This document shows positions 13,452 to 64,000 of a DNA stretch of 64,000 nt, one piece after another; the first letter of the stretch is position 1, and every line of letters begins with the position of its first letter. Under the pieces are notes generated by a model that was given only the letters and a program-made list of their open reading frames with translations, was not told the origin of the DNA and did not search any database. This stretch comes from Lachnospiraceae bacterium (GTDB taxonomy: Bacteria > Bacillota > Clostridia > Lachnospirales > Lachnospiraceae). The stretch is from NCBI GenBank assembly GCA_014804655.1, contig JAAUZK010000006.1, positions 32,104 to 96,103 of the forward strand. The letters run 5' to 3'. A program made the position numbers and the translations under genes.

Positions 13452-14387
13452 ATGGAATTTAAACATACATCAGTTCTTTTAGAGGAAACGATAGATAATC
13501 TGCAGATCAGACCGGACGGGGTCTATGTGGACGGTACGCTGGGCGGTGGCGGGCATGCCTGCCGCGTTGCCGGGGCGCTTGGAGAAAACGGAAGGCTCAT
13601 CGGCATTGACCAGGATGAAGCTGCTATAGAGGCAGCAGGATTAAGGCTGAAACCTTTTGAGCGGAAGGTGACATTGATTCGCGACAATTACCGTAATGCA
13701 CGGACGGCGCTTAGACAGATAGGGATTGAGAAAGCAGACGGAATCGTGCTGGATCTGGGAGTATCGTCTTTCCAGCTGGACAATGCAGAGAGAGGATTTT
13801 CCTATAAATATGATACGGCACTGGACATGCGGATGGATCTGCGGCAGTCACTGACCGCGGCGGATATCGTGAATCAGTATACGGAAATGCAGCTTTATCA
13901 TGTGATCAGGGATTACGGAGAAGAGCAATTTGCCAAGAATATCGCAAAGCATATCGTAAACGCCAGAACGGACAAGCCCATAGAGACTACGGGACAGCTC
14001 AATGAGATTATCAAGGCAGCGATACCGGCGAAGATGAGGGCGACGGGAGGGCATCCCTCCAAGAGAACATTTCAGGCGATTCGAATCGAGTGCAATCGGG
14101 AACTGGAAGTGCTCAGGGATTCGCTGGACGAGCTTATCGATATGTTAAATCCGGGCGGAAGAATCTGTATCATCACATTTCATTCGCTGGAAGACAGGAT
14201 CGTGAAAACGGCTTTTAAGAAAAATGAAAATCCTTGTACGTGTCCGCCGGATTTTCCGGTGTGTGTATGCGGGCAGGTGTCGAGAGGCAGAGTTATCACC
14301 AGAAAACCGATTCTGCCGTCACCGGAAGAACTGGAGAATAATAAGAGAGCCAAAAGTGCAAAACTCAGAGTTTTTGAGAAGAAATAA
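13452..14387 (+). CDS. rsmH: 16S rRNA (cytosine(1402)-N4)-methyltransferase
   Basis: SAM-dependent methyltransferase acting on 16S rRNA C1402. The SAM site GTLGGGGHA, the [11 protein letters not shown] block, the [13 protein letters not shown] helix and the C-terminal [10 protein letters not shown] are all present. The start is set at ATG 13452 ([14 protein letters not shown], the normal N-terminus) with AGAGGTTAGAG just upstream; the TTG at 13434 lacks support. 311-312 aa. Confidence 0.96.
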
Positions 14388-55851: not shown

Positions 55852-56472
55852 ATGTATTGCATATTAGTAACGGGAATTCCGGCAGCGGGAAAAAGTACTA
55901 TGGCGGAAGCTATAGCAGAGAAATTGAAGCTGCCTGTTATTTCAAAGGATATAATTAAGGAATTGCTATTTGATCATGTCGGGTTTCAGTCTAGAGAGGA
56001 AAAAGTAGAGCTTGGAATTGCCAGCATGGAAATTATGTATTATGCGGCGGGACAGCTTATGAGAGCAGGACAACCTTTTATCTTAGAGAATAATTTTGAA
56101 TATTCGTCAGAAAGTGGATTAAAGACTCTTTTGGAAAAGTATCAGTATTCCGTACTGACAATTACTCTGACAGGTGATTACAAAGCGATCTACCAGCGTT
56201 TTCTGGAACGGGAGACCAGTCCCGACAGGCACAGAGGACATGTGGTGAATGACTGTTATCCGGAAAAAGAGTGCGGTGCGGAGAAAAGAAAAGTCAAATC
56301 CATTTCTTATGAAGATTATGTATATGGGATAGAACAAAGAGGCTTTGATTCTTTTTCTGTTGAAGGCAGGCAGATCAAAGTTGACACAACAGATTTTGCC
56401 AAAATTGATATGGAAAAATTATTTGCGCAGATTGCGGCGTGGATGGAGGAAATTCAATATGATAACAGATAA
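55852..56472 (+). CDS. P-loop kinase-like ATPase
   Basis: 206 aa. Walker A LVTGIPAAGKSTMAEA near residue 4-19, then KLPVISKDIIKELLFD (an AAA_33/zeta-toxin-like pattern with the DxI/KDxIKE motif), an FILENNFEY strand and a LID-like ERETSPDRHRGH arginine region. Resembles small-molecule kinases (chloramphenicol phosphotransferase-like and related AAA_33 proteins). The start is ATG 55852. Ends overlap the next gene by 14 bases. Confidence 0.75.
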   Translation: MYCILVTGIPAAGKSTMAEAIAEKLKLPVISKDIIKELLFDHVGFQSREEKVELGIASMEIMYYAAGQLMRAGQPFILENNFEYSSESGLKTLLEKYQYSVLTITLTGDYKAIYQRFLERETSPDRHRGHVVNDCYPEKECGAEKRKVKSISYEDYVYGIEQRGFDSFSVEGRQIKVDTTDFAKIDMEKLFAQIAAWMEEIQYDNR

Positions 56473-57757
56473 CATTATTCCCCTTCCCAAAGAACAGTGG
56501 AAGGGCACGATCATTCCAATGCGCTATACGACGGAAGAATATTATGATGTGGATATGCAAAAAGCTGCGGACGGATATGATGTAGCAATTCATAGGAAAA
56601 AATTTGATACGCCTGTGACGCATTTTCCGGAAGAGTATGATTTTCCTGACAAATTGTATCAAGATCATTGGGAAAAAGCATATGCGTGGGGTATCGTTGA
56701 AGAAAAAGGCGGCAAACAGGAGCTGCTTGCCTGCATCGAGACATGCCCGGAGGAGTGGAGTAACCGCTTGATGGTTACGGAATTGTGGGTTCATGAGAAA
56801 ATAAGAAGGCAGGGCGTTGCACATGGGCTGATGGCGGTTGCGAAAGAACAGGCAGTCTTAGAGAATCGCCGGGCAATCATTTTGGAGACGCAGTCCTGCA
56901 ATGTGGGAGCGATTGCTTTTTATCAGAAGGAAGGCTTTGAGCCCATCGGTTTCGATACGTGTTGTTATAGTAATCGGGACGTGGAGAGAAAAGAAGTGCG
57001 GATCAACATGGGATATTTCCCGCGCCGGAAACAGAAAGTGACGAGAGACGATGTTGTGATCCGCAAGGAAGAGCTGTGTGAATATCATAAGACGGAAGAG
57101 ATGACGCTGAAAGCTTTTTGGAATAAACATCATTTGGGATGTAATGAACATCTTCTGGTGCATAAACTGCGAAAGAGCGATGTGTATTTGCCGGAACTGT
57201 CCAGAGTGGCGGTGGTTGGCGATGAGATCGTGGGAGCGATCTTCTACAGTAAGGCGTGGCTGAAGCGTGCAGAAGATAACGCGGCGGCGTGTATGGTTGG
57301 TCATGTCGAAGACTATACAGGAGTGAGTGAAGACAGCGCGATGAATCATAGAGAATGCTGTGATTCGGGAAAAGAGCATATCAAGGAAATACTGACTTTT
57401 GGACCGCTCTGCGTGGCTCCTGAATGGCATGGGTGCGGTGTGGGAGGATTGCTGCTGAAAGAGACCCTTGCACTGGCAAAAGAAGCGGGATATGGAGGCG
57501 TTGTGATTTTCGGCGAACCGAATTATTACCCGAGACATGGTTTCCAGACTTGCGATCATTTCGGAATTACTACGGCCGACGGGAAGAACTTTGATGCGTT
57601 TATGGGAATAGAGCTCGTGGAAGGCGGGCTTGCAGATTTCGGCGGAAAGTTTTATGAGTCGGAGATTTTTGAGGATTTACCGGAGGCGGAGAATGAGGAG
57701 TTTACAAAAGGATTTGCTGCACCGGTTAAGAGGAAGTTTCCTTGCCAGTGGGATTAA
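56459..57757 (+). CDS. Protein with two GNAT domains
   Basis: 432 aa. N-terminal GNAT (about 55-185) with the CoA-binding EKIRRQGVAHGLMAVAKEQA and a late NVGAIAFYQKEGFEPIGF; C-terminal GNAT (about 240-390) with APEWHGCGVGGLLLKETLAL and the FYPRHGF-like YYPRHGFQTCDHFG. The C-terminal half matches the YhbS-type acetyltransferase pattern. The ATG at 56459 follows GGAGGAAATTCAAT inside the previous gene. The fusion of two different acetyltransferases is unusual; substrates unknown. Confidence 0.78.
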   Translation: MITDNIIPLPKEQWKGTIIPMRYTTEEYYDVDMQKAADGYDVAIHRKKFDTPVTHFPEEYDFPDKLYQDHWEKAYAWGIVEEKGGKQELLACIETCPEEWSNRLMVTELWVHEKIRRQGVAHGLMAVAKEQAVLENRRAIILETQSCNVGAIAFYQKEGFEPIGFDTCCYSNRDVERKEVRINMGYFPRRKQKVTRDDVVIRKEELCEYHKTEEMTLKAFWNKHHLGCNEHLLVHKLRKSDVYLPELSRVAVVGDEIVGAIFYSKAWLKRAEDNAAACMVGHVEDYTGVSEDSAMNHRECCDSGKEHIKEILTFGPLCVAPEWHGCGVGGLLLKETLALAKEAGYGGVVIFGEPNYYPRHGFQTCDHFGITTADGKNFDAFMGIELVEGGLADFGGKFYESEIFEDLPEAENEEFTKGFAAPVKRKFPCQWD

Positions 57758-57778
57758 GGGGTAATAGGTGGAAGTGTT

Positions 57779-58330
57779 GTGAGAATCATTGTGATAAGGC
57801 ATGAGAAAGTTGATATGACATGGGACAGGAAATATAATTCAGCGGCATATGATCTGGCGTGTGAACAATATGATCGGTGTCCGATTGCTTTTCCGGATAA
57901 GAAATATGCGAAAATCGCCGGCGCCGGGAAAATCTATGTCAGTGGATTATCCAGAACTTATGAAACTGCCTGCAGATTATTTGAGGAAACAGATTTTGTT
58001 GAGACCGCCTTGTTGAATGAGGTTCCACTTAGGTCATTTAAAGATACAAAGCGGTCGTATCCTTTGTGGGTGTGGAATTTTATCGGGAGATTTCAATGGT
58101 TTCTGGGGAGAAGCAGGCAGTCGGAGAGCCGGGAGAAGACAAGGATTCGTGTAAGGGAAATGATCAGGTTGTTGGAGACGCGTCAGGAGGACTGTTATCT
58201 TGTCACGCATGGGTTTTATATGAGGGTGCTTATTAGTGAGCTGAGAAGATGTGGGTATAGGATTAGGAGAGGGAAGATTTTTAGGAGTTTTGGGATATCG
58301 AATTTGGATCGGGTTGTGGCTGTAAAGTAG
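57779..58330 (+). CDS. Histidine-phosphatase-superfamily protein
   Basis: 183 aa. RHE motif in IVIRHEKVDMTW (residues 4-15), SGLSRTYETACRLF and the catalytic THGFYM near 140 are all present, so it should be an active branch-1 histidine phosphatase or phosphoglycerate-mutase-like enzyme. GTG start at 57779. The same frame stays open for 83 codons after the stop TAG at 58328-58330, suggesting that a longer gene may have been cut. Confidence 0.75.
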   Translation: MRIIVIRHEKVDMTWDRKYNSAAYDLACEQYDRCPIAFPDKKYAKIAGAGKIYVSGLSRTYETACRLFEETDFVETALLNEVPLRSFKDTKRSYPLWVWNFIGRFQWFLGRSRQSESREKTRIRVREMIRLLETRQEDCYLVTHGFYMRVLISELRRCGYRIRRGKIFRSFGISNLDRVVAVK

Positions 58331-58879
58331 GCGGTAAAGGTATGGAGAACTTGTATACCGGATAATATCGAAGATGAAGGGGTGTATGAGGAGCAGTTGT
58401 GTTGGGATAATGTATTGCTGGATGTAAGAACGAGGGAATTACTGAAAATATTTGTCGGTTATAGGTATATCATATTAAGATTGGTGTCAAGCGATGCGGA
58501 ACAAATTAAACAGCAGATGATCCATCGGCATAATAATGAGGGCAGATTGTACTATTTGGAAAATGTTGAAAGAGCGAATTAGGTGATAATGTGTAGAAGA
58601 TTGTTGCCGAATGAGGCGCAAATTGATGTTGCGGGGAAGAACAAGGCGGAATTATTTTGTCGTGGGTGTGGAGTCGGAAGTTGAAATGAGTTGATGGAGT
58701 GGAGAACATTTTATGGGGATAATGTAAGACGGAGAGAGGAAAAAGAGAGTAGTGAAGGAAAGACTATCGGTAAGAGATTCACAGCAGCGTTTTTGTTGTG
58801 GGTGGGCGGAGATTAAATTATTTGTATAATTTTGTAAAAATAGATGATTTTTGTAGTGGGGTATGGTATGATTTAATAT
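58331..58879. other. Region without an intact gene upstream of the AT-rich island
   Basis: 549 bases. A plus-strand frame (58331-58582, same frame as the preceding phosphatase) encodes RELLKIFVGYRYIILRLVSS and similar coding-like text, with GTG 58382 as its only late start; a further 31-codon frame begins at ATG 58589 (MCRRLLPNEAQIDVAGKNKA). Neither has a good ribosome site or a family I know. They look like remnants of genes broken by insertion of the island. GC content falls sharply towards 58850. Confidence 0.4.
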
Positions 58880-58944
58880 GATAATTAAAAGTTATCCGTT
58901 GGATATGGTTCTGAAACACAATAGATAATAAGAAATTATCCGTT
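58880..58944. repeat. 65-bp inverted repeat, left copy (promoter of the ATPase gene)
   Basis: Perfectly identical, in reverse orientation, to 62653-62717. It contains two TTATCCGTT copies 44 bases apart, the first being part of the dyad TATCC-GTT-GGATA, and a promoter-like -35 TTGGAT with TAGATA 17 bases on. It lies 64 bases before the ATPase gene. Confidence 0.9.
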
Positions 58945-59007
58945 AATTAAGCTAAGAAAATGTAACTTCTTATTATATAAATTATTTACAAAAGGATATT
59001 GCGCATT

Positions 59008-61566
59008 ATGGATTTCTTAAATAGGGACAGGCAACGTAATTTATTAAAACAAAGTTTGGATAAAATTCAAAATGGTATAGAGCAATGCATATGGGTAGAG
59101 GGTAGCAGCGGAACTGGGAAGACTTATTTTGTAAAATATATGAAGAAGCAGGAGAACCCACCAGTTTTTTGTTTTGACGATTTTAGCTGGTTGTATAAAT
59201 GTAATTCAAACGATATCAATAAGGAATTCTCGTATATTATTGCACTTGTTTCAGATTTTCAAATTAAGCATCCAGATGAATTCAATAATTATCTTATTAA
59301 ATACTTTAACAAAATTAATAGCACAAGCTGGATAGAGATTCTTATTCATCTAATTCCAAATATTAAATTTACTGAATGGGCAAAAGACATTGTTAATTAT
59401 AGTGCAGAAGATATTTTAAACGCTAAAAGTGATATATCATCAAGACTATATTCGCAAGGGCTTCCGAAATTTTTTGCCGAATTAATTATTTATATGCTAA
59501 ATACGGTTGAAAAGCGAGAGAAGGTTCTGTTTTGTATTGATGATGCTTGTTGGTTAGATGATAATTCAATTAAAACCATTAATATTATTCTGAATATGCT
59601 TTTATTCTCTGATACGCCAAATTTCCAGATTTCCTTTGCTATAATTACAAGGAAAAAAGAAGAATTGGAACAAGGTACATCTAATTATGAAATATTGGAA
59701 AATGTTTTAAAAGATTATTTCGGTACACTAGAATATATTTATATTAAAAATTTTGATGTTGAAACGACTAAAAAATATGTAGAATTGATGAATAAATCAG
59801 TAATATTAGAAAAATCGACCTCCATTTACAGAATAACAAATGGAAATCCGCAAGAACTATATCAAGCATTAAAAATTGATAGTGAAGATTTGTTAGAATT
59901 ATGTGAACACCAAAGTAATAATACTATAAGTATGCCAATTTCTAATGAATTAATCTTAAATTTTATTAGTAAGAATTTATGCATACTGCCTATACTTGCG
60001 TGTATCTCACTGGTACATACTACAATACCCCAATCTTGGTTACCAATATTAGTACAATCAATTTGTAATAAATTGCATATTCCTTTTAGTTCATCAAATT
60101 ATGATGAAAGTATTGTTCTGTTAGAGGAAAATGATTTAATATCCAAGAAAAAAGATAAAATGGTAATCAGTCATGATTCAATCAAGGAAATTGTAAGAAG
60201 GTTTCTGCAAGAAAATGGGGAATATTCTGATTATATTGATGCTATTGCTGCAGGCCTAGAAATCTGTAGTGAGCCATCAAATGTCATGAAAGAAATCTTC
60301 TATTTATATGCAGATTACAATACTAAAAAATGTTTTGATTTTTTTGTTAAAAATCATGCATCTGGAAATATATTAGATGCTGATATTTATAAGGTTGTAA
60401 TAGGAAGTTTGATAAAAGATTGTTCTATATTTACACCTGACAATTTAAACAATTTTATTGTTCCGATAATAATAAAAGAGTGTACATTTCTGTCATTATA
60501 TGATGATGTTTATGAAGTATGCCGTATAGTTTATTATATGAAGGGGAATCTAACACTCAAAACCTTGTTCCAATATTTAACCTTGTTTTCCAAAGTATTA
60601 ATTGATATGGCACAACTTGACAAAAATCAACAGTTTAACGCTATAAGCATTATTAATGAGGCGTTACAAATAGAAAATCTTAGTGCAGATGCAAAGGTAG
60701 AGGCGCACTTATTGGCAATGTCTGCATATGAGCACATATTAGATTTTGATAATATAACGGAAAATAATATTAAAGCTACAAGAATTTATTCAACTTGCAC
60801 AGTCTCAGATTATCTTAAAGCCATGTATTTACGAAATCAAGGCTTAGTGCAATCACATATTGAATTAAGTGAATCATATGAAGAAGCTATTAATTATGCA
60901 GAAAAAATAGATGATATTCGGCAGAAAAATCTAATGTTAGGAACTTGCCATAATAATCTTGGTCTTAGTTATTGGTATTCTAACGATCTTACAAAAGCTA
61001 AATCTCAATTCTATATGGCAAAACAATATTTGGAAAACATAGGATATGATATTTTTAGGGTATTAAATAATATTTCGATGTGTTATTTGCTTGAAGGTGA
61101 TTTGTCAAAGGCTTACAAGTATTTGTTACAAGCAAAAGCTCTTAATATAGACTGCATTTTTGAAAAACTATGTATTCAAAGCAATCTTGCAATCATAGAA
61201 TGGAAACTAGGGCAAAAAGAATCCGCAAAACAGATGTCTCTTGACATATATAATGAATATATTACTAACAACAAACAAACCGCAGATGAACTGGTATATA
61301 GCTCTGCGATGGTAAATATGGGCTATTTTTCTTTTTGCGAAGGCAATTATATAGCTGCTGCCAATATGTATAAAGAGTCGCAGTTTTTTAAATATAGATA
61401 TAATAATGAAGAACAGTATAATAAAAGGCAATCCATGATCGAGATTTGTCTTTCAAAAATTAATCTGCTACCCCAAAAAGAAATAAATATGGATATAGAT
61501 GATAGAGGGCAGGATATATTTAAATGTATGTATGCACCGATTAGCTTTGCATATTATGTAATCTAA
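59008..61566 (+). CDS. STAND-like AAA ATPase with C-terminal TPR repeats
   Basis: 852 aa, strongly AT-rich. The N-terminus starts directly with the LNRDRQRNLLKQSLD motif of AAA_16/STAND proteins; Walker A is EGSSGTGKT (31-39), Walker B VLFCIDDACWL (about 173-183, Asp-Asp), and a sensor-like IITRKKEEL follows. A winged-helix-like middle region (about 330-410) leads to helical TPR-type repeats (about 520-800; LGLSYWYSNDLTKAKSQFY and YLLEGDLSKAYKYLLQAKAL). No effector domain precedes the ATPase and no DNA-binding domain follows the repeats, unlike MalT-type regulators. The start is ATG 59008; TTG 58999 is also possible. Convergent with a carbamoyltransferase-like gene and sharing its 65-bp upstream sequence. 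Confidence 0.8.
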   Translation: MDFLNRDRQRNLLKQSLDKIQNGIEQCIWVEGSSGTGKTYFVKYMKKQENPPVFCFDDFSWLYKCNSNDINKEFSYIIALVSDFQIKHPDEFNNYLIKYFNKINSTSWIEILIHLIPNIKFTEWAKDIVNYSAEDILNAKSDISSRLYSQGLPKFFAELIIYMLNTVEKREKVLFCIDDACWLDDNSIKTINIILNMLLFSDTPNFQISFAIITRKKEELEQGTSNYEILENVLKDYFGTLEYIYIKNFDVETTKKYVELMNKSVILEKSTSIYRITNGNPQELYQALKIDSEDLLELCEHQSNNTISMPISNELILNFISKNLCILPILACISLVHTTIPQSWLPILVQSICNKLHIPFSSSNYDESIVLLEENDLISKKKDKMVISHDSIKEIVRRFLQENGEYSDYIDAIAAGLEICSEPSNVMKEIFYLYADYNTKKCFDFFVKNHASGNILDADIYKVVIGSLIKDCSIFTPDNLNNFIVPIIIKECTFLSLYDDVYEVCRIVYYMKGNLTLKTLFQYLTLFSKVLIDMAQLDKNQQFNAISIINEALQIENLSADAKVEAHLLAMSAYEHILDFDNITENNIKATRIYSTCTVSDYLKAMYLRNQGLVQSHIELSESYEEAINYAEKIDDIRQKNLMLGTCHNNLGLSYWYSNDLTKAKSQFYMAKQYLENIGYDIFRVLNNISMCYLLEGDLSKAYKYLLQAKALNIDCIFEKLCIQSNLAIIEWKLGQKESAKQMSLDIYNEYITNNKQTADELVYSSAMVNMGYFSFCEGNYIAAANMYKESQFFKYRYNNEEQYNKRQSMIEICLSKINLLPQKEINMDIDDRGQDIFKCMYAPISFAYYVI

Positions 61567-61623
61567 TGTGTGTAATAATTAGTACAATGAATAATAAATT
61601 TCTGATACATTGGCACAGTATGA

Positions 61624-61731
61624 TTGTTCATACCCAAGGAGGAGAAGCGTGCTGCAGCGGTGACTACAGCGATTGACAACTATGTGGTAGATGAGCAGCC
61701 AGATATCAATGTATCAGGATATAAAGTATGA
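61624..61731 (+). pseudogene. GC-richer coding remnant between the convergent genes
   Basis: A 35-codon frame without ribosome site, starting at TTG 61624, ending TGA 61729-61731. Its text (EEKRAAAVTTAIDNYVVDEQ, then PDINVSGYKV) and base composition differ from the AT-rich island around it and look like the end of a chromosomal gene. The carbamoyltransferase-like gene ends inside it on the other strand. Confidence 0.35.
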
Positions 61732-62622
61732 TAAGAAAAGGGAAGCACGAACATATAATCCGTTATAAGCTTGTGTAAAATATTTTGAACCAGGAAATTC
61801 ATCAAAATACTTGGGTAATTCTTTTGTTCTTGGTAATGGATGCAGAATTATTGTATCTGGTGTAAAATTTTGATATAGTTGGGTTGAAGTCATAACAAAT
61901 TCATCATAAAAGTAGGTTTCTTTAAAAATTTTATCCATGTAAATTACACTGATTTGATTAGAAATACCACAATCCAAAAAATCATCAAAGGATGCATAGT
62001 AAGATACTTCTATCTTGTTTAAAAATTTATTTGTTATAGACTCCATTAATAAAACACCCTTTTGGCATAAAATATGTACATGAATATTTTTCCAGTTAGA
62101 TATTCCTAACAGAAAAGAATTAATCGTTCGCTGTCTGGGAGTGCCTATAATTAAAATATTTATGCCTGATAAATCCGATCCGAGAGAATCTGTTAATGTA
62201 AATAAATCGGTTAATGCTTGTGTTGGATGCTCTATATTGCCGCTTCCAGCCGAAATAACAGGTACGGATGTACCTTTAATAAAATCATCCATATAGGTTG
62301 CGTCAATTGTGCGCATTACAATGATATCACAATAATTACTAACAATTATCCCCATATCATCTAAGGGCTCATAATAGGGAGGACCACTCCGAGAATGATT
62401 TATGTCTGAAAATCCAATAGTTTTCCCACCCAATTTGAGAAAAGCGGATTGAAAGCTTAATTGAGTGCGTGTACTAGGTTGTAAAAACAAAGAAGCAAGA
62501 ATTTTTCCAGATAAGGTATTATAATTTTTTTCGAATAATTTATCTTTGGCTTTAGCAACTGAAAAGATATCTTCCATTTGTGTTTTTGTTATGTCCAATA
62601 TTGATATTAAGTTTTTATTCAT
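61714..62622 (-). CDS. Aspartate-carbamoyltransferase-like enzyme with altered acceptor site
   Basis: 302 aa from ATG 62622 (MNKNLISILDI, the PyrB-type N-terminus; GGAG lies 12 bases upstream; ATG 62640 would add six residues). The carbamoyl-phosphate site is intact: STRT (50-53), R104, H132 in EHPTQALTDL, Q135 and the HPLPR motif at 261. The residues that bind aspartate in E. coli PyrB are not: the 80s loop with Ser80/Lys84 reads HSRSGPPYYEP (about 76-86), Arg229 is Lys231 and Gln231 is Phe233. No pyrimidine genes are nearby. A dedicated carbamoyltransferase with another acceptor is the likely reading. Confidence 0.85.
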   Translation of the reverse strand: MNKNLISILDITKTQMEDIFSVAKAKDKLFEKNYNTLSGKILASLFLQPSTRTQLSFQSAFLKLGGKTIGFSDINHSRSGPPYYEPLDDMGIIVSNYCDIIVMRTIDATYMDDFIKGTSVPVISAGSGNIEHPTQALTDLFTLTDSLGSDLSGINILIIGTPRQRTINSFLLGISNWKNIHVHILCQKGVLLMESITNKFLNKIEVSYYASFDDFLDCGISNQISVIYMDKIFKETYFYDEFVMTSTQLYQNFTPDTIILHPLPRTKELPKYFDEFPGSKYFTQAYNGLYVRASLFLSYFIS

Positions 62623-62652
62623 TTTCGTAATCATCTCCATATCTAAATATCC

Positions 62653-62717
62653 AACGGATAATTTCTTATTATCTATTGTGTTTCAGAACCATATCCAACG
62701 GATAACTTTTAATTATC
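62653..62717. repeat. 65-bp inverted repeat, right copy (promoter of the carbamoyltransferase-like gene)
   Basis: Reverse complement of 58880-58944 without a single mismatch. On the minus strand it ends 30 bases before the enzyme start. Just beyond the shared 65 bases the second TTATCCGTT is followed by GGATAT, so in this copy both TATCC-GTT-GGATA dyads are complete. Confidence 0.9.
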
Positions 62718-62746
62718 CATCAAAACAAATCGTTTTTTTTCCTCAC

Positions 62747-62799
62747 TTGACACTCCCTTCCCACATATGTTTTAATAAAAATTAAGCAACTGCTCAATT
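62747..62799 (+). promoter_or_regulatory. Promoter and operator of the TetR-CPBP unit
   Basis: -35 TTGACA (62747-62752) with TTTAAT 18 bases on (62771-62776). A 20-bp imperfect palindrome with half-sites AATTRAGCA (62780-62799) covers the expected start of transcription, a good site for autoregulation by the TetR protein. Confidence 0.5.
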
Positions 62800-62820
62800 C
62801 CTAAAACCGAGGTACACCAC

Positions 62821-63396
62821 ATGCAAAAAGGCAACGAACGCAGAAAACAACTCCTATCCGTATCCCTGGATGAATTCATCACAAAAGGCTTCTACGGCAC
62901 AAGCACACGCTCGATCTGCCGCAAGGCAGGAATTAGTTCCGGCCTGCTTTTTCACTATTTCCCCAACAAGGAAAATATTTATCTTGAGTTAGTAAAAATC
63001 GGAGTCGAGGAGATGTATATCGACACAGCCAAAGCCATGCAGACCCCTAAAGAATATCTGTTCCAAACATTGCACGGAATTTTAGAGCAGCTCGAAAACA
63101 CCCCTTTTTACAGAAAGATGTTCGTTTTTATAGACAACGCACAGCACGTTGATACAGGAATAGAAGAGGTCAGAGCATTGCTCGACAAAGCCGATATTGC
63201 AAAACAATGGATACCCATTATTCAAAGAGGACAGGAATTGCAATGTTTTCATGCGGGCAATCCACATGCGATATGCGTCGCCCTGTTCGGAGCCGTACAG
63301 GGAATTGCACAGGAAAAAGTGCGGATGTCTGACACACCATTGCCGGATGCGAAATGGCTTATGAGACTGGTTGAGGAGGAGAATGGGTCGTGTTAA
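62821..63396 (+). CDS. TetR-family regulator
   Basis: 191 aa. HTH: RRKQLLSVSLDEFITKGFYG, then TSTRSICRKAGISSGLLFHYFPNK is textbook TetR. The C-terminal ligand domain is of the TetR_C type with an INNAQHVD-like FIDNAQHVD segment. The gene overlaps the start of a CPBP gene by 7 bases, so the two are co-translated, the same pairing as at 53.3-54.6 kb but on the other strand. Confidence 0.9.
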   Translation: MQKGNERRKQLLSVSLDEFITKGFYGTSTRSICRKAGISSGLLFHYFPNKENIYLELVKIGVEEMYIDTAKAMQTPKEYLFQTLHGILEQLENTPFYRKMFVFIDNAQHVDTGIEEVRALLDKADIAKQWIPIIQRGQELQCFHAGNPHAICVALFGAVQGIAQEKVRMSDTPLPDAKWLMRLVEEENGSC

Positions 63397-64000
63397 ATCC
63401 ATATAGAAAATTGTTGCAGATTTCCGAGTTCGCGAAACGAAGCTTGAAAACAAACTTACTCATTTTCATAATCATAACGCTTTCAAGCGGCTGGCTCGGT
63501 GTCCTTGCCGACCGGATCTTGACCGAGCAGCCGGAGGGGTACAGTGCGGGAACGGGGATCTGGCTTGCGCTTCCTTTATTATGTGCAATCATATTCAGAA
63601 TCAGGGAAAAAGAATGGAAAAGTTTTGGTCTGGCTTTAAACATAAAGCTGGGATGGTGCGGTTATATAGTCGCAGTTCTGACATATCCTGCGATAACGAT
63701 CATTACCGTTTTTCTTGCGGTGTGCTTTGGCTATATTGATGTTTCAATGATCTCATGGACTGCCGTTATCTCAGCGGCGTTGGCTTCTTTAGCCGGAAAT
63801 TTCATAAAAAATATTTTCGAAGAATTTGCATGGCGCGGCTATCTGACACCCAGATTACTGGAATGCAGCCTGAGCGACTGGCTGATCTACGGCATATCAG
63901 GACTGGTTTGGGGACTATGGCATACAGCATATTATATGGTTTTCTTGGGCGATGAGTATTTTTTGACATCATCAAGGTTGGAAACACTTATGTTTGGATG
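63390..64000 (+). CDS. CPBP-family intramembrane protease, 3' end cut by window edge
   Basis: Starts at GTG 63390, overlapping the TetR gene, after GAGGAGGAGAATGGGTC, and stays open to the end of the window (203 codons seen). Four to five helices are visible so far, and the signature EExxxR is present in NIFEEFAWRGYLTPRLL, followed by WGLWHTAYYMV with the second-motif histidine. The third motif is beyond the edge. Confidence 0.88.
   Translation, partial: MLNPYRKLLQISEFAKRSLKTNLLIFIIITLSSGWLGVLADRILTEQPEGYSAGTGIWLALPLLCAIIFRIREKEWKSFGLALNIKLGWCGYIVAVLTYPAITIITVFLAVCFGYIDVSMISWTAVISAALASLAGNFIKNIFEEFAWRGYLTPRLLECSLSDWLIYGISGLVWGLWHTAYYMVFLGDEYFLTSSRLETLMFG

Follow-up and report, generated by a model that had tools for sequence, protein, structure and literature searches.

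What is the role of a perfect 65-bp inverted repeat that brackets two convergent genes? This question is raised by positions 58880-62717 of a 64,000-nucleotide stretch of DNA from a Lachnospiraceae bacterium (GenBank assembly GCA_014804655.1, contig JAAUZK010000006.1), which we refer to as the window. The enclosed genes encode a STAND-like nucleoside triphosphatase (NTPase) and a carbamoyltransferase-like enzyme. A sequence-only reading had taken the repeats for promoters of these genes and had proposed that the pair forms either a regulon of two genes or a mobile unit. That proposal is in keeping with the unit's sharp boundaries at the repeats and its recurrence elsewhere, but the repeats are better explained as inversion sites, which it had not considered. 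We think that 58880-62717 is most likely a phase-variable invertible cassette, in which one promoter outside the repeats expresses either of two modules. This reading draws on several lines of sequence evidence: the sites themselves, the rule by which they pair, their linkage to a recombinase in relatives, contig breaks, and the exchange of cargo between units.

Paired sites and a linked recombinase

The left arm (58880-58944, plus strand) and the right arm (62653-62717, minus strand) are complementary at 65 of 65 positions and enclose 3708 nt. As the earlier reading had claimed, the repeat is perfect, and a genome-wide search located these two copies only in the 4.55-Mb genome; remaining matches were insignificant (20 bp at 90%, E 0.9; 14 bp, E 3.1), and the viral contigs searched contained no copy of the 65-mer. 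The identity of the arms lies beyond chance, since a perfect match of 65 nt needs no statistic and the homologous locus L038 contains a perfect pair too, 62 nt long and different in sequence. Two convergent open reading frames (ORFs) at 59008-61566 (plus) and 61714-62640 (minus) lie between the arms, and the GC content of the unit (29.6%) is low compared with the 10 kb to its left (41.1%) and right (43.9%); both had been stated correctly, as had the presence of a TATCC-GTT-GGATA dyad in the arms. The core of the repeat is a dyad of 17-18 bp, GATAAT-N5-RTTATC(C), which occurs twice per arm, as the near-palindromes GATAAT-TAAAA-GTTATCC and GATAAT-AAGAA-ATTATCC at a distance of 44 bp. Each arm would therewith bear two dif-like sites, whose 5-bp central spacer is identical in both arms. 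The dyad scan and the pairing rule described below predict outer recombination sites at 58880-58897 (left, plus strand, TAAAA spacer) and 62700-62717 (right, TAAAA on the minus strand), and the dyad scan predicts inner sites at 58924-58941 (left, plus strand, AAGAA spacer) and 62656-62673 (right, AAGAA on the minus strand).

The pattern GATAATNNNNNRTTATCC was scanned in 77 genomes of the genus, the window's own included, with the reversed pattern as control (G-numbers denote genomes, C contigs and L loci; G000 is the window's own genome). It gave 118 raw matches, corresponding to 105 unique sites in 42 of the 77 genomes, compared to a single match of the control. Among site pairs spaced 0.5-9 kb apart, 22 were inverted with an identical N5 (18 units in 17 genomes), and none was direct with an identical N5. 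These 22 pairs use 16 different spacers, so that N5 varies between units. Nine further close pairs have non-identical spacers; eight are cross pairs inside double-site units, and one (G036) is unrelated. Crossover by tyrosine recombinases needs conserved half-sites, while the spacer is free to differ between units and identical within a unit. The exclusively inverted pairs with their identical N5 within each unit thus carry the signature of a tyrosine-recombinase crossover site. An integron cassette was ruled out by the lack of direct same-spacer site pairs in the 77 genomes, and a Fur-like operator was dropped because its spacing, as in the familiar Fur box, is different and the spacers here vary. 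No empty site was found.

In 35 complete units, the longest exact run common to both arms measures 18-126 bp (median 30); it does not exceed 30 bp in 18 of them, or in 15 if only the 30 units uncut by a contig end are counted. L064 (84% repeat), L098 (masked N stretches) and units that show one site only are left out of this table. The arms are thus often alike only at the dyad, which indicates that the invariant part is the site. The pattern is not confined to the genus: it was matched in 140 of 397 family genomes, many with a single match, and 12 inverted pairs, hand-picked as such among the matches listed, span 11 further genera, with one genome each. A recombinase adjoins 10 of these 12 units, and the other two are near-segment contigs; 10 of 12 is no unbiased rate, since the units were hand-picked and the recombinases recognised by eye. 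A scan of viral contigs with GATAATNNNNNRTTATCCGTTG retrieved 12 contigs carrying single sites.

A recombinase profile (E ≤ 1e-80) detected 46 genes in 44 of the 77 genomes, two each in G023 and G056 and one in each of the others. In 27 of 47 recombinase loci (the 46 plus L038), a site (20) or site-like sequence (7) lies downstream of the stop codon at a distance of up to about 250 nt, a figure to be read with the origin of the profile in mind, which was itself built from eight site-linked recombinases. Recombinase and site co-occur in 32 genomes, and both are missing in 23 (Fisher p 4e-4 for the complete fourfold table). The window's own genome encodes one such protein (G000:C24:253276-254187). 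It has no internal stop and retains the R..H-x-x-R..H..Y residues. Its identity to seven other aligned recombinases is 64-73% for six of them and 48% for that of L111. G026 contains at least three cassettes (L099, L126 and L201, with site pairs TTATA, TAAAA and TTGTA) and one detected recombinase.

The assemblies of relatives also contain signs of inversion. Of the 46 recombinase genes, 16 have a contig end at most 250 bp away on the 3' side and 1 has one equally near on the 5' side, where 0.38 would be expected under uniformity. In each of G059, G060, G013 and G028, one arm is shared by two contigs of differing flank, whose ends in it coincide or lie a single base apart. G026:C69 and G026:C65 consist of exactly the segment, with arms that share only 18-21 bp, G074:C40 begins at a site, and two near-segment contigs were seen (G373:C39 and G405:C23). 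This is the assembly graph that would be expected if both orientations coexisted in the sample, and it could thus be an indirect trace of inversion. A homologous unit with 561-aa and 337-aa proteins was found in both arrangements, with the 337-aa side at the recombinase in L100, L209 and L210, and the 561-aa side in L214. A related arrangement is carried by a 126-kb phage contig from IMG/VR (L190), whose recombinase is 70% identical to the own-genome copy. Here, an open frame of 347 codons runs into one site of an inverted pair 3.35 kb apart, and nothing comparable exists on the flank beyond the other site. Read individually from the inner ends of the two sites, 403 and 216 codons stay open in the phase of that frame. 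L190:7920-13691, with the same type of recombinase and the dyad, looks like a switch of a fibre-like C-terminus.

Taken together, inversion by recombination between sites is well supported for these putative cassettes, and by extension the window unit may invert in its own strain, presumably with the own-genome recombinase acting in trans. According to this model, the XerC/D-like tyrosine recombinase encoded elsewhere in the genome would recombine the left and right sites and flip the 3.8-kb segment, and a promoter just outside the left site would read into the adjoining module. The orientation as assembled would yield the STAND-TPR protein, and inversion would yield the carbamoyltransferase-like enzyme.

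Transcription into the two modules

A promoter-like element, ATGATT-17-TATGAT, is located at 58844-58872 (plus strand) and ends 7 bp before the left site. It occupies the same position in G069, G042, G056 and G043, so that five of five species with different cargoes have an ATGATT/ATGACA-17-TATGAT/TATGCT/TATACT element 7-8 bp before the site. L121 and L126 have a similar arrangement (TGAC-TTTGTAG...GGTATRAT, noted post hoc) 7 bp outside a site. The TGTAG promoter motif occurs in 12 of 73 flanks (shuffle mean 2.0, maximum 7), although it was picked after seeing the data and 5 of its 12 flanks belong to one locus. No promoter feature was detected in the window's right flank (4.2 bits, p 0.90). 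The earlier claim that the repeats double as promoters is not supported: related arms are often alike only at the dyad, the spacing of the in-arm pair TTGGAT-17-TAGATA is not retained in G069 or L038, and the promoter-like element common to the five species lies outside the left arm.

At 17 of 45 module ends, a mechanically listed ORF starts at most 40 nt from the site; the distance is 1 nt in L103 and L110, and 15 nt for the window enzyme. Such proximity leaves little room for a private inner promoter. Hairpins of -9 kcal/mol or better precede the site on 13 of 26 recombinase sides. Of the recombinase-side flanks, 1 of 26 reached a promoter score with a shuffle p ≤ 0.05, compared with 4 of the 13 other flanks (Mann-Whitney p 0.0025). 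A further 13 units, with three recombinase flanks reused from the first set, showed the opposite flank scoring above the recombinase flank in 10 (one-sided p 0.04). At L113, L132, L143, L146, L147, L148 and L151, the recombinase stop overlaps the site or lies within 26 nt of it, and no terminator-like hairpin is present, which suggests that transcription runs on into the segment.

A number of observations weigh against a simple invertible cassette with one outside promoter. The left promoter of the window does not reach significance on a generic score (9.4 bits, shuffle p 0.24), and its support therefore consists of its presence in five species and the similar arrangement in L121 and L126. Half of the recombinase sides have no strong hairpin, for three of the 13 'other' flanks (G074:C2, G038:C26 and G006:C2) a position opposite a recombinase is not established, and several units are without a clear promoter on either flank. 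The better promoter is on the recombinase side in L111, L209 and L210, and the two flanks are about equal in L211, where moreover the 5' end and not the 3' end of the recombinase faces the site. Where a site follows within a few nucleotides of a recombinase stop, read-through could express the recombinase side too. Sites without a detected recombinase were seen in 10 genomes and the reverse in 12, and the recombinase is not adjacent to the window unit. The assembly of the window's strain, a single strain, shows one orientation only. The near-segment contigs (L215, L217) are weaker evidence than the exact ones because of their overhangs of up to 99 bp and, in L217 (G405:C23), arms that share at least 60 bp.

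Promoter asymmetry is thus not universal among the units. Because of this uneven promoter evidence, we hold mutually exclusive expression of the two modules with moderate confidence, and keep as its main rival a ratio switch, in which the segment inverts, both flanks transcribe inward, and inversion swaps a strong and a weak promoter. A ratio switch would agree with sites that lie 6-26 nt past a recombinase stop without a terminator-like hairpin (L132, L143, L146, L147, L148 and L151), and with the promoter-like sequence on both flanks of L211. It appears rather unlikely in view of the terminator-like hairpins on 13 of the 26 recombinase sides and of the featureless right flank of the window.

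Exchange of cargo between loci

A search of 194 genomes (own plus 193 relatives) for the window NTPase returned the protein itself and two partial weak matches. The resulting impression of an orphan was overturned by L038, a locus labelled as a Butyrivibrio sp. metagenome-assembled genome and the single homologous locus in a contig scan reaching close relatives only. When window positions 56001-64000 were compared, 58878-62725 was 88.8% identical in DNA sequence to L038 7879-11737; outside the unit, matches measure only 25-30 nt, and homology stops at the repeats. The pairing of NTPase and enzyme genes is kept in L038, as the earlier reading had anticipated for a conserved system; the identical twin promoters that it had envisaged along with this pairing are unsupported. 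The perfect 62-nt inverted repeat of L038 is clearly unlike the window arms, a change in length included. As the L038 arms are equal to each other, yet unlike those of the window, the two arms of a unit seem to evolve together. The right arm of L038 adjoins a XerC/D-like tyrosine recombinase (best NCBIfam match XerC, E 3.9e-68, under cut-off), which ends in a terminator-like hairpin ahead of the arm. A 32-nt direct repeat (L038:7613-7644 and 13824-13855, 91%) flanks a stretch made up of the inverted unit, a PIN-like gene and the recombinase, which may have come in together as one larger integrated element.

The chromosomal place of the window unit holds other cargo in other species. The left flank of the window unit is shared by four genomes. 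Of these, G069 and G043 carry its right flank as well, and the contigs of G056 and G042 stop short of it. In G069, an ATP-grasp ligase-like protein faces a 766-aa P-loop protein without Pfam match, within a repeat of its own. In G043, genes for a 254-aa protein, a class II aminoacyl-tRNA synthetase-like protein and a methyltransferase all point the same way, with a 32-nt repeat of 84% identity. The G056 cargo is a 1153-aa AAA_16/TPR protein, to which we assign a restriction endonuclease (REase)-like N-terminus by reading of the sequence, and in G042 two proteins that we likewise take to be glycosyltransferase-like face a presumably TPR-like end. All of these cargoes, and that of the window, start with GATAAT-N5-ATTATC or GATAAT-N5-GTTATC. 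Five species hence hold five cargoes at one chromosomal place, beside a conserved left-flank promoter. The left flank further contains a remnant of a P-loop-kinase-like gene (58351-58651, plus strand), whose frame is intact in L063, L065 and L066; the L063 protein has weak AAA matches. To the right of the unit, a TetR ORF of 191 aa is open. Gene remnants, which had been reported for both sides, are therefore present on the left only.

Such mobility could also mean that the two genes are the cargo of a transposon-like element with the repeats as its ends. The unrelated context of the L038 unit with homology stopping at the repeats, the low GC content and the variation of cargo between species at one place would be expected of a mobile unit. 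On the other hand, no transposase was recognised among unit ORFs of at least 60 aa, the genome holds no further copy of the 65-mer, and no target-site duplication was seen by eye in the flanks of the window or L038 units. Moreover, half of the uncut related units (15 of 30) share no more than 30 bp between their arms, and the spacer rule and an adjacent tyrosine recombinase are not transposon features. We consider a transposon-like element improbable. The earlier reading was to be refuted if the repeat turned up in numerous places of this genome without the two genes; this is not so for the 65-mer, but its core dyad surrounds many other pairs of genes in relatives. The movement of units between loci is real, and homologous or recombinase-mediated exchange can be its route.

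The contig breaks at sites, in turn, could be due to the repeated sequence of the arms and not to inversion, as the arms are repeats, some of them of 54-60 bp or more (G059, G074 and L217), and the outcome depends on the k of the assemblers. However, the L099 and L201 segments break at both ends though their arms share only 18-21 bp, which is below the usual final assembler k, and the 3' side of the recombinase is hit far more often than the 5' side (16 vs 1 of 46), which makes breakage by repeats alone quite improbable. A two-gene regulon, with the dyad as operator and the arms as twin promoters of genes that are always co-expressed, would suit the position of the dyads directly upstream of both genes and the identity of the 65-bp arms, but is highly improbable given spacers that are identical within and different between units, pairs that are always inverted, sites that abut a listed start (L103 and L110), the recombinase beside the site in relatives, and the L190 site inside an open reading frame.

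Cargo genes and known systems

The STAND-like NTPase with TPR repeats (59008-61566, plus strand, 852 aa; a TTG start at 58999 is possible) matches AAA_16 (E 2.4e-7) and TPR_12 (E 6.3e-7), both slightly below the Pfam cut-offs. A Walker A motif GSSGTGKT and an acidic FCIDDACW motif are visible by eye, and the protein combines a P-loop NTPase with C-terminal repeats, as is characteristic of STAND proteins, on the basis of these sub-cut-off matches. Its AlphaFold model, a helical superhelix, is of low confidence (pLDDT 50.5) and usable as a hint only; Foldseek with this weak model placed the STAND-TPR structure 6mfv at rank 22. The aspartate-carbamoyltransferase-like enzyme (61714-62640, minus strand, 308 aa; the start may be 62628) has the Pfam domains OTCace_N (E 1.9e-35) and OTCace (E 1.1e-10), and scores under the NCBIfam equivalog cut-offs. 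A second member of the carbamoyltransferase family in the same genome, of a kind present in nearly all relatives, is 33% identical to it. In an alignment with PyrB, the window enzyme shares the carbamoyl-phosphate motifs STRT, HPTQ and HPLPR, but differs at the positions of E. coli R229, Q231 and K84, which are K, F and lost, respectively. R229 and Q231 bind aspartate in E. coli PyrB. As the aspartate-binding residues are not retained, the window enzyme likely uses another acceptor. PADLOC assigned the pair to no described defence family (NTPase only BrxD at E 0.036, enzyme none). Both proteins were absent from the viral contigs searched, and the NTPase was absent from the plasmids and phages searched.

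Throughout the family, segments are 2.1-7.0 kb long and gene-bearing, and the cargo is usually a large protein of STAND, REase, SIR2 or TIR type that faces one to three modifying enzymes. Eight of ten large proteins scanned match NTPase families at E ≤ 0.01, four of them above the curated cut-off (L097, L099, L104 and L106), and additional domains are SIR2_2 in L097, Mrr_cat in L099 (L098 just under cut-off) and TIR_2 in L103. PADLOC clearly recognised a SIR2-type/pAgo protein (L097) and a TIR-TM protein (L103) among these ten, with four weak matches and four without any. The ten partner proteins include a D-Ala-D-Ala ligase, a serine hydroxymethyltransferase (SHMT), ATP-grasp plus radical SAM, two pentapeptide proteins and a glycosyltransferase; two are P-loop proteins with sub-cut-off matches, and two have no match. 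By reading of their sequences, we take L201, L207 and L212 to encode a NodU-like carbamoyltransferase, L136 a SIR2 protein and several units a GT2 enzyme. The alternatives of L126:5658-7811 are presumably SIR2-like and TIR-like, both NADase-type immune domains, and L203 (G007:C125:79000-86000), with what we read as membrane-protein-like and FAD-oxidoreductase-like genes, departs from the NTPase/enzyme theme. The enzyme module is on the recombinase side in 10 of 14 hand-classed units, which is not significant (p 0.18), and the L098 module was assigned its side from the C-terminal part of a recombinase at the end of a contig.

Several pairs recur with both partners alike: 561/337 aa in five units, NodU-like/large protein in three, pentapeptide/radical-SAM in three, and ATP-grasp/NTPase in L063-L111 and L104-L213. 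These recurring pairs are candidates for a testable joint function. Two SHMT units have the SHMT in common and no detectable shared partner.

The invertible segments of phages Mu and P1 have one outside expression source and a recombinase gene beside the segment, and use serine invertases to switch tail-fibre-type genes. The P segment of E. coli e14 with PinQ is likewise invertible (PMC12529663). These systems resemble the cassette in their invertible alternative coding sequences and a recombinase; they differ in that serine invertases act on tail-fibre-type genes, whereas the cassette would combine a putative tyrosine recombinase with whole unrelated transcription units, an NTPase versus an enzyme. 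In Clostridia, inverton group 139 with invertase group 35 has inverted repeats, a nearby tyrosine-type recombinase and measured orientation shifts (PMC11892184). The repeats and the recombinase are features in common, but two group-139 examples given there span about 0.25 kb, compared to the gene-bearing segments of kilobase length found here. STAND NTPases are combined with TIR, HEPN or GT4-type glycosyltransferases in the STAND/GT4 conflict systems (PMC8195603), and the L098 partner matches PF20706 GT4-conflict slightly below threshold (25.4 bits, cut-off 26). The partners of those systems, as described there, are fused or in one operon, and the main text of that article mentions neither inversion, recombinase nor convergent genes (PMC8195603). 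No description of invertible STAND/enzyme cassettes was found in the literature searched, with preprints and most subscription journals outside its scope. The chemistry would hence be known, while the family of sites and the logic of the cargo appear to be new.

For this family, inverted GATAAT-N5-RTTATC sites with the same N5 provide a simple rule for finding cassettes. The NTPase side may represent an immune sensor. We tentatively suggest, as a possibility somewhat short of an even chance, a family-wide immune switch: one recombinase per genome would flip one or several cassettes whose alternatives are matched yet exclusive, an intracellular sensor-effector of NTPase, nuclease or NADase type or a partner enzyme that modifies, and cassettes would be swapped between loci and species via their shared sites, so that a clonal population would always mix cells in an alarm state with cells of modified surface or metabolites. 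Bacterial STAND (NLR-like) proteins are usually viewed as standing immune sensors. If our reading is true, a recombinase would set an either/or choice between STAND proteins and glycosyltransferases, ATP-grasp ligases or carbamoyltransferases, and immunity in these bacteria would be bet-hedged cell by cell.

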